Part shown: one piece after another, positions 27,479-30,246 of the stretch
Position numbering within the stretch: position 1 is the first letter of the stretch
How the letters are laid out: each line of letters opens with the position of its first letter
DNA from: Haloferax sp. Q22
Lineage (GTDB): Archaea > Halobacteriota > Halobacteria > Halobacteriales > Haloferacaceae
DNA length: 64,000 nucleotides
Direction: 5' to 3'
Assembly (NCBI RefSeq): GCF_001482285.1
Contig: NZ_LOEP01000033.1
Location: forward strand, 124,001 to 188,000
Program-made: the position numbers and the translations under genes
The notes under the pieces: model-generated
What the model was told of the DNA's origin: nothing
What the model saw: the letters and a program-made list of their open reading frames with translations, nothing else
The model's database searches: none

Positions 27479-27690
27479 GACTCGAAACTGGTCGCCGAGA
27501 GCCAATAAACCCCCACGCCGGCACCGAGTTTCGACGGTCGGCCGCTTCGGGTCCCCGTGAGACCGACTGCCGTGGCCACTAGTTTGACGTTACCCCGACG
27601 CGAATAGCACGGTGAGGCGTGACGACTGTGAACCGCAATTCAACCGAAATGCGGCATATCGGTGTCGTCACCCGATTCATCGGAGAAAGA

Positions 27691-27722
27691 TTTATATATT
27701 CAAAACGCTAACTTTAGGTTAG
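27691..27722 (+). promoter_or_regulatory. Heat-shock-type promoter with CTAAC-N5-GTTAG palindrome
   Basis: A strong TATA box, TTTATATATT (27691-27700), follows a purine-rich BRE (CGGAGAAAGA). Downstream, CTAAC-TTTAG-GTTAG (27708-27722) lies at the expected transcription start, 7 bases before the ATG at 27730. As I recall, CTAAC-N5-GTTAG is the palindrome bound by the heat-shock regulator HSR1 in front of its own hsr1-cdc48-hsp20 operon in Archaeoglobus fulgidus. Overlap with the start site would suit a repressor. Confidence 0.75.
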
Positions 27723-27729
27723 ACTTACC

Positions 27730-27981
27730 ATGAGCATGCAACAGTTCGCCGGCGGGAACGAGCGGTTCATTCGCCGGTACGAATACGAAGACTGCTGGGT
27801 CATCGCGGCCGACGTGGGCCTCTCGGAAGACGAGGTCGACGTGGACATCGTCGGGTCGACGGCCATCGTCGTGGCCGACCTCGGCGACCGCGTGACCGAG
27901 ACGGAGTTCGAACTCCCCGCCGGCGGCGACGCCGACGTAGCGGTTCGAAACGGCGTGCTCACCATCACCCTCACCAAGTAA
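27730..27981 (+). CDS. Hsp20-like small protein preceding cdc48
   Basis: This 83-residue protein resembles a minimal alpha-crystallin/CS fold. Alternating beta strands end in a V-R-N-G-V-L-T-I-T-L-T-K motif, close to the G-V-L-x-I/V-x-I/V-P pattern of Hsp20 proteins. It lacks the usual N- and C-terminal arms, so it may act alone or as an adaptor. The stop codon is followed directly by the cdc48 ATG (TAA-ATG), and both share the promoter. A role with Cdc48 in protein quality control is inferred from this coupling. Confidence 0.8.
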   Translation: MSMQQFAGGNERFIRRYEYEDCWVIAADVGLSEDEVDVDIVGSTAIVVADLGDRVTETEFELPAGGDADVAVRNGVLTITLTK

Positions 27982-30246
27982 ATGAAACTCATCGTCAAAC
28001 CCCTCAAACAGAAGGACGCCGGTCGCGGACTCGCCGCCATCGACCGAGCCGCGGCCGCGGAACTCGACCTCGAAGGCGGAGATTTCATCCGCATCGACGG
28101 TCCGAACGACGGGACCGCCATCGCCCGCGTCTGGCCCGGGTACCCCGAAGACCAGGGAACGGGTATCATCCGCATCGACGGTCGCCTCCGCCAGCAGGCC
28201 GGCGTCGGCATCGACGAGCGCGTGGACGTGGAGAAAGCCGACGTGAAGCCCGCAAAACGCGTCACTATCGCGCTCCCGCAGAACCTCCGCATCGGCGGTA
28301 ACATCGGGACGTACATCCGCGATAAGCTCTCCGGCCAGCCGGTCGCGCAGGGCCAGAGCGTCCAGCTTCCGCTCGGCTTCGGCTTCATGAGCGCGTCGAA
28401 CCAGTCGGTCCCCATCAAAATCGCGTCGACGGACCCGGACGGCACCGTCGTCGTCACCGACAACACCGAGTTCCAGGTGAGCCAGAAGCCCGCAGAGCAG
28501 ATTAAAGACTCCGCGCCGGGCGACGACGGCGGTCCCTCCGTCACCTACGAGGACATCGGTGGCCTCGACAAGGAGCTCGAACAGGTCCGGGAGATGATCG
28601 AACTCCCGATGCGCCACCCCGAGCTGTTCAAGCGCCTCGGCATCGAGCCGCCAAAGGGCGTGCTCCTCCACGGCCCGCCGGGGACGGGGAAGACCCTCAT
28701 CGCGAAGGCCGTCGCCAACGAAATCGACGCCTCGTTCCACACCATCTCCGGCCCGGAGATCATGTCGAAGTACTACGGTGAGTCCGAAGAGCAGCTCCGC
28801 GAAATCTTCGAGGAGGCCACGGAGAACTCGCCCGCCATCGTCTTCATCGACGAGATAGACTCCATCGCGCCCAAGCGCAGCGAGGCCGGCGGTGACGTGG
28901 AACGGCGCGTCGTCGCTCAGCTGCTGTCGCTCATGGACGGGCTCGACGAGCGCGGCGAGGTCGTCGTCATCGGCGCGACCAACCGCGTGGACGCCATCGA
29001 CAACGCGCTCCGCCGCGGCGGGCGCTTCGACCGCGAAATCGAAATCGGCGTGCCGGACCGCGACGGCCGCAAGGAGATCATGCAGGTCCACACGCGGAAC
29101 ATGCCGCTGACCGACGACGTGGACCTCGACGCCTACGCCGACAGCACCCACGGCTTCGTCGGGGCCGACCTCGAGTCGCTGGCGAAAGAGTCGGCGATGC
29201 ACGCCCTGCGGCGCATCCGCCCGCAGCTCGACCTCGACGCCGAGGAGATAGATGCCGAGGTGCTCGAAGGCCTCAGAGTCACGGAAGACGACTTCAGACA
29301 GGCGCTCAAGAGCATCGAGCCCTCGGCGCTCCGCGAGGTGTTCGTCGAAGTCCCCGACGTGACGTGGGAGGACGTGGGCGGACTCGAATCCACCAAGGAA
29401 CGCCTTCGCGAGACCATCCAGTGGCCCCTCGAATACCCCGAGGTGTTCCAGCAGATGGACATGGACGCCGCTAAGGGTGTTCTGATGTACGGTCCGCCGG
29501 GCACGGGGAAGACCCTGCTGGCGAAGGCCGTCGCCAACGAGGCGGAGTCGAACTTCATCTCCATCAAGGGCCCCGAACTCCTGAACAAGTTCGTCGGCGA
29601 GTCGGAAAAGGGCGTCCGCGAGGTGTTCAAGAAGGCCCGCGAGAACGCCCCGACGGTGGTGTTCTTCGACGAAATCGACTCCATCGCGACCGAGCGCGGC
29701 CGCGACTCGTCGAGTTCGGGCGTCACCGAGCGCGTCGTCTCCCAACTGCTCACCGAGCTCGACGGGCTCGAAGCGCTCGAAGACGTGGTCGTCATCGCGA
29801 CGACCAACCGGCCGGACCTCATCGACTCGGCGCTCCTGCGCCCCGGCCGCCTCGACCGCCACGTCCACGTGCCCGTGCCTGACGAGGACGCCCGCCGCGC
29901 CATCCTCGACGTGCACACCCGCGAAAAGCCGCTCGCGGATGATGTCGACCTCGATAAAATCGCGTCGAAGACCGACGGCTACGTCGGTGCCGACCTCGAA
30001 GCGCTCGCCCGCGAGGCGTCGATGAACGCCTCCCGCGAGTTCATCCGGAGCGTCGAAAAGGAGGACATCGGCGAGAGCGTCGGGAACGTTCGCGTGACGA
30101 TGGAACACTTCGAGAACGCCCTCGACGAAATCGGCGCGAGCGTCACCGACGACGTGCGCCGCCGCTACGAGGAGATCGAAGAGCGCTTCCAGAAGAGCGA
30201 GGTCGAACGCGACCGCGAGACCGAAGTCGGTCGCACCTTCCAGTAA
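27982..30246 (+). CDS. cdc48: Cdc48/p97-type AAA+ ATPase
   Basis: This ring ATPase unfolds proteins, working with the proteasome in archaea. It has 754 residues. The N domain (1-190) is the double-psi barrel with Cdc48-type start K-L-I-V-K-P-L. D1 has Walker A G-P-P-G-T-G-K-T near 230 and Walker B I-V-F-I-D-E-I-D near 288. D2 has the same Walker A near 502 and V-V-F-F-D-E-I-D near 560. Arginine fingers are in R-G-G-R-F-D-R and R-P-G-R-L-D-R. The C-terminus, G-R-T-F-Q, differs from the HbYX tail expected for direct proteasome docking. It is the second gene of the hsp20-like operon. Confidence 0.96.

Follow-up and report, generated by a model that had tools for sequence, protein, structure and literature searches.

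A conserved palindrome at the Hsp20-like/cdc48 promoter of Haloferax and other haloarchaea as a putative operator of an HSR1 orthologue

In the stretch of Haloferax sp. Q22 DNA analysed here (contig NZ_LOEP01000033.1, positions 124,001 to 188,000, 64,000 nucleotides; hereafter the window), the palindrome CTAAC-TTTAG-GTTAG precedes the genes of a small Hsp20-like protein and of Cdc48, and a site of the form [ACG]T[AT]AC-N5-GTTAG occupies the same place in all 137 haloarchaeal promoters covered (84 read and 53 by position). Results of our analysis indicate that this palindrome is probably the operator of an orthologue of HSR1, the heat regulator described in Archaeoglobus fulgidus, and that the operon would be repressed and then freed by stress, the same site being present on a gene of transcription factor TFB and, in some of the species, at the hsr1 gene as well.

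Promoter layout and conservation of the palindrome

The features of the locus are collected in Table 1. The left arm of CTAACTTTAGGTTAG begins 17 nt past the start of the TATA box, the ATG of the 83-aa open reading frame is located just downstream of the palindrome, and the stop codon of this frame is adjacent to the start codon of cdc48. An earlier note on this DNA, which described the palindrome as placed directly after a TATA box at the predicted start, in front of a small gene and cdc48 with stop and start adjacent, agrees with these coordinates in both respects.

Table 1. Coordinates of the features discussed (window positions, except for hsr1)
Feature	Position	Strand	Basis or remark
Upstream element GAACCGCAATTCAACCG	27630-27646	+	conserved among aligned promoters
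TATA box TTTATATA	27691-27698	+	sequence; TTTATATA columns conserved across the alignment of 84 promoters
Palindrome CTAAC-TTTAG-GTTAG (CTAACTTTAGGTTAG), putative operator	27708-27722	.	over predicted transcription start
Hsp20-like protein, 83 aa, Pfam DUF7127	27730-27981	+	Pfam, predicted structure
cdc48 (AAA ATPase; CDC48_N, CDC48_2, two AAA domains)	27982-30246	+	domain search
hsr1 orthologue, own genome	contig C20, 74532-75182		

The exact palindrome, with a variable centre, starts 22 nt ahead of this start codon in 15/15 Haloferax genomes; the conservation at cdc48 in other Haloferax species, on which the earlier note had made its interpretation depend, is thus complete in this sample. 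It is also exact in 27 of the 28 further haloarchaeal loci, the remaining one reading ATTACCTTGAGTTAG, which gives the exact form in the window and in 42/43 loci. In the loci taken from genomes without the exact site at this place, the degenerate form is present in 41/41, with the left arms CTTAC, ATTAC, GTTAC, ATAAC, and GTAAC found outside the exact group. The expectation of the same palindrome across haloarchaea holds, then, as regards the place of the site, but the exact form is kept only in part of them. Since these 41 loci were picked for the absence of the exact site, its share among the 84 promoters is not a sample estimate. For the 53 promoters covered by position, an exact site coincides with the start of the DUF7127 gene in 53/53. 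Matches to DUF7127 were obtained in 145 genomes (132 in the sample of the order and 13 further Haloferax), of which the 137 are covered here, and 14/146 genomes of the order lack such a match. In 98/146 genomes of the order, an exact site is located no more than 30 nt from an ATG, which is not always that of this gene. The presence of cdc48 downstream was seen at loci L017-L044 and follows from position for some, not all, of the other loci.

In the alignment of 84 promoters, eight arm positions (T2, A4, C5, and GTTAG) reach 2.0 bits each, which is partly due to construction, as the same pattern was used to locate the sites, yet the site is present in 84/84. The genomes compared are related and not independent, but most positions between the TATA box and the arm are almost saturated with changes (0.1-0.5 bits), while the eight arm positions remain at 2.0 bits. 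The number of motif copies does not exceed that expected by chance: a scan of the window with up to two mismatches gave 4 matches vs. 7.24 expected, the exact palindrome has one copy in the own genome vs. two for the reversed control, and the relaxed pattern NTWACN5GTTAG has 12 matches in this genome (the cdc48 site being included twice, once per strand) vs. 14 in the control. Because the genome count is at chance level, the case for the site rests on its conservation. Among the relaxed matches in the own genome, the cdc48 promoter alone has, by eye, a promoter-like placement.

The overlap of the palindrome with the predicted transcription start and its fixed spacing to the TATA box might also fit a core-promoter (initiator) or mRNA leader element that is no protein operator. 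We regard this explanation as very improbable, as a motif with one exact copy in the own genome is no general promoter feature, and the palindrome recurs on particular genes, namely, the cdc48 operon, one TFB gene, and hsr1. Moreover, the usual distance between the TATA box and the start in archaea puts the left arm upstream of the transcription start, and this arm would be absent from the RNA.

A second conserved element, GAACCGCAATTCAACCG, is located further upstream. Its exact pattern occurs once in the own genome, and 95 matches with up to two mismatches are found there vs. 45 in the control. The core of this element, GAAC[CT][AG]C[AGT]A, is present within 110 nt upstream of the palindrome in 67/84 promoters, in 64 of these 67 at a distance of -76 to -81 relative to the left arm. 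This element is possibly the site of an activator.

The sequence TTAGGTTAG of the window resembles half of the DtxR/IdeR consensus. A DtxR/IdeR-type site was rejected, since TTGGGTTAG takes its place in most Haloferax relatives and the right flank is variable; for the same reason CTAAC-N5-GTTAG is considered the conserved unit.

The 83-aa protein belongs to the Pfam family DUF7127 (E 9.8e-57), which is its only Pfam match at E 0.001, and thus no named Hsp20 sequence family was assigned to it by Pfam; a search against NCBIfam matched no family. Its single-sequence structure model (mean pLDDT 73.4) is all-beta with seven strands, and small heat-shock or crystallin proteins account for 49 of the 50 PDB matches listed, the CS domain of SGT1 for one. 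The protein is, therefore, predicted to adopt an alpha-crystallin (Hsp20) fold in a model of moderate confidence. The label Hsp20-like given to it in the earlier note is in agreement with this predicted structure, the top PDB matches of which are alpha-crystallin domains.

The HSR1 orthologue and its linkage to cdc48

Genome G258, which we take to be that of A. fulgidus and whose operon agrees with this assignment, contains CTAAC-N5-GTTAG upstream of three consecutive genes, which encode an ArsR-type protein, Cdc48, and an Hsp20-like protein. In the Archaeoglobus-like family f21, the exact site precedes an hsr1-like gene in 12/12 fetched loci. The HSR1 motif and the proposed repression are described in PMC9133787, from which, together with the G258 operon, the A. 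fulgidus palindrome named in the earlier note can be confirmed.

With HSR1 of G258 as a query, one strong match was found in 11/11 haloarchaeal genomes (E 6.6e-36 to 8.6e-26); no other gene matched better than at E 2.6e-11. In the reverse search in G258, HSR1 was the sole match at 1e-6, which makes the two proteins reciprocal best matches. A haloarchaeal HSR1 used as a query matched in 141/146 genomes of the order at 1e-10 and in 122/122 of those of good quality; the match in G110 is weak, and the five genomes without one are less than 90% complete. The helix-turn-helix is near identical between haloarchaeal HSR1 and that of the Archaeoglobus lineage. The domain search assigned haloarchaeal HSR1 to ArsR winged-helix proteins, and Pfam HTH_Cmi2_C matches its C-terminal half; no paper that links Cmi2 with Haloferax was found in the open-access literature searched.

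The closest solved relative of haloarchaeal HSR1 by sequence is Phr (2p4w, E 1.4e-21), a related ArsR-type heat regulator of Pyrococcus furiosus. In the comparison of the predicted HSR1 model (mean pLDDT 83.7) with the PDB, Phr is also first by E-value, with a TM-score of 0.39, and SurR (2quf) is the better match of the full-length model by TM-score (0.66). Unlike Phr, haloarchaeal HSR1 is far below the cut-off of the NCBIfam Phr family NF053602 (93 vs. 320 bits), as is HSR1 of G258 itself (85.2 bits).

The suggestion that haloarchaea have an unrecognised HSR1-like repressor can thus be accepted as regards the orthologue, found in all 11 genomes searched from G258 and in all 122 of good quality, but the protein is not wholly unrecognised, because its family, arCOG01684, which includes HSR1 and Phr, has already been placed in most euryarchaea (PMC5852551). 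According to the same source, an HSR1-family protein and Cdc48 are raised by heat in Methanonatronarchaeum.

In 12/12 haloarchaeal genomes (the 11 above and G025), hsr1 is located on a different contig than cdc48 or at least 60 kb from it, so that, by gene order, in none of them does it form one operon with cdc48 and hsp20. Outside the order and family f21, an HSR1 match was found in 12/16 genomes, and in seven of these 12 (G205, G182, G175, G166, G173, G160, and G159) hsr1 is beside cdc48, while in five it is apart. The linkage in these seven genomes and its absence from the 12 haloarchaeal ones make the association of hsr1 with cdc48 look ancestral and subsequently lost in haloarchaea.

Further sites on a TFB gene and on hsr1

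In the own genome, one of the 11 TFB loci carries a symmetric site, CTTAC-N5-GTAAG, downstream of its TATA box. Among the best 30 TFB loci of the 55 genomes searched, the pattern CT[AT]AC-N5-GT[AT]AG is present within 120 nt upstream of the TFB gene in 19, including 10/10 Haloferax, with one mismatch in four and absent or weak in seven. The distance from the start of the TATA box to the arm is 17 nt in 18/19 of these promoters, the same as in the window, and elsewhere the pattern has one match in 118,593 positions. Exact sites precede TFB genes in other haloarchaea at L201-L204, L207, L209, and L210, where the open reading frames were read, and at L205 and L206, which were assigned to TFB by the place of the site in front of a TFB match. 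Further exact palindromes are found at L198 and L211-L214. At L195, L196, and L197, from three genomes of family f9 that lack DUF7127, the palindrome is on a full-length gene that is Hsp20-like by eye.

In front of hsr1, the pattern [CT]T[AT]AC-N5-GT[AT]A, which omits the last base of the site, occurs at -14 or -13 in 13/39 haloarchaeal loci and reaches the start codon, with no match in 30,888 positions elsewhere; over all 39 loci, the mean mismatch is lowest at -14. Such a distribution is as expected for an autoregulator. No match was found at the remaining 26/39 loci, and hsr1 of Haloferax has no convincing copy of the palindrome. In two Methanocellales MAGs (L337 and L365), a second degenerate copy follows 14 nt after the first one upstream of hsr1. 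The sites on TFB and hsr1, as well as the lost linkage of hsr1 and cdc48, go beyond the earlier note, the interpretation of which is supported on the sequence side by the conservation of the site, the confirmed motif, and the HSR1 orthologue.

The separation of regulator and site in the 12 haloarchaeal genomes, as well as the drift of the left arm in several families, could suggest that the site has been taken over by another haloarchaeal regulator and that the HSR1 orthologue has another role. However, every genome searched yielded a single strong match, HSR1, its helix-turn-helix has hardly changed across the lineages, and in 13 of 39 species the start codon of hsr1 is overlapped by a variant of the site, which makes the takeover by another protein improbable.

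Proposed regulation and its relation to known systems

From the site, its position and conservation, the orthology of the regulator, and the further sites, all of which are observed here, the best reading is that HSR1 would be a repressor of the Hsp20-like/cdc48 operon, of one TFB gene, and in many cases of its own gene. We infer that haloarchaeal HSR1 binds the palindrome over the transcription start as a dimer and, as a repressor, would block transcription of the Hsp20-like and cdc48 genes. Stress would release it, heat or misfolded protein being the most likely signal, and the copies of the site at one TFB gene and, in some species, at hsr1 would be used in the same way.

That HSR1 is the right regulator but responds in haloarchaea to a redox, metal, or other stress instead of heat seems unlikely, albeit less so than the alternatives discussed above. 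Among 27 HSR1 proteins, the cysteine C27 of the winged helix shows a conservation of 90% or more; it corresponds in the alignment to a tyrosine in Phr and is possibly a thiol switch, like that of SurR, a protein of the same arCOG as HSR1 (PMC9426492). Haloarchaeal HSR1 also passes the cut-off of an NCBIfam ArsR/SmtB metalloregulator subfamily (68.6 vs. 55 bits). On the other hand, its putative targets are chaperone-type genes, HSR1 and Phr are described as heat regulators (PMC9133787), and tfb2 of H. volcanii, which may or may not carry the site, is induced by heat up to eight-fold as determined by Northern analysis (PMC2121645).

Control by HSR1 in response to heat, which we prefer, could extend to a two-step cascade, a tentative proposal with a chance somewhat short of even. 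The release of HSR1 from DNA under stress would free both the Hsp20-like/Cdc48 operon and a dedicated TFB gene, and this TFB would redirect RNA polymerase to heat-shock promoters, for which the BRE and TATA box of each promoter would be enough. For hsp5, these two elements are reported to be sufficient in the heat response (Lu 2008, as cited in PMC9133787). The TFB site would link HSR1 to the heat induction of tfb2, although the site-bearing TFB may differ from tfb2. The proposed cascade is similar to the heat response through raised TFB (TFB2/TFBb, hsp5 promoter) described in PMC9133787 and PMC2121645, but the excerpts of these papers concerned with it do not name the regulator of the TFB gene, and an HSR1 operator would supply one.

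The HSR1 regulon of A. fulgidus, for which the HSR1 site and autoregulation have been published (Rohlin et al. 2005, via PMC9133787), shares with the haloarchaeal system CTAAC-N5-GTTAG over the promoter, cdc48 and small heat-shock targets, and an orthologous regulator. In haloarchaea, by contrast, hsr1 is not linked to cdc48, the small heat-shock protein belongs to the minimal DUF7127 type and is encoded upstream of cdc48, the site at hsr1 is confined to some of the species, and a further copy is found on a TFB gene.

In its section on this subject, a 2022 review states that no such heat-shock repressor mechanism has been identified in halophilic archaea (PMC9133787). Among the matches listed in our search of the open-access literature, we recognised no description of the operator or of the TFB site in haloarchaea. 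The portions consulted of papers on CsmR (PMC13286277) and nasABC (PMC8143581) contain nothing on the HSR1 regulator, those of a haloarchaeal stress review (PMC7601130) name neither HSR1 nor TFB, and those of PMC3225822 and PMC10470531 mention a Cdc48 homologue or Cdc48a without heat control. In the relevant text of PMC5437934, "HSR1" merely begins the names of strains. While the occurrence of the HSR1 family in most euryarchaea was known before, the haloarchaeal operator and the TFB site thus appear, as far as these sources go, to be undescribed.

The putative operator has been kept between the widely separated lineages Archaeoglobi and Halobacteria while the linkage of the regulator to its target was lost. 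Our results name a candidate regulator, its putative site, and as many as three probable targets for the control of heat shock in haloarchaea. If the cascade is true, a repressor of bacterial type would control a general transcription factor of eukaryotic type, in a manner like the control of sigma factors in bacteria.
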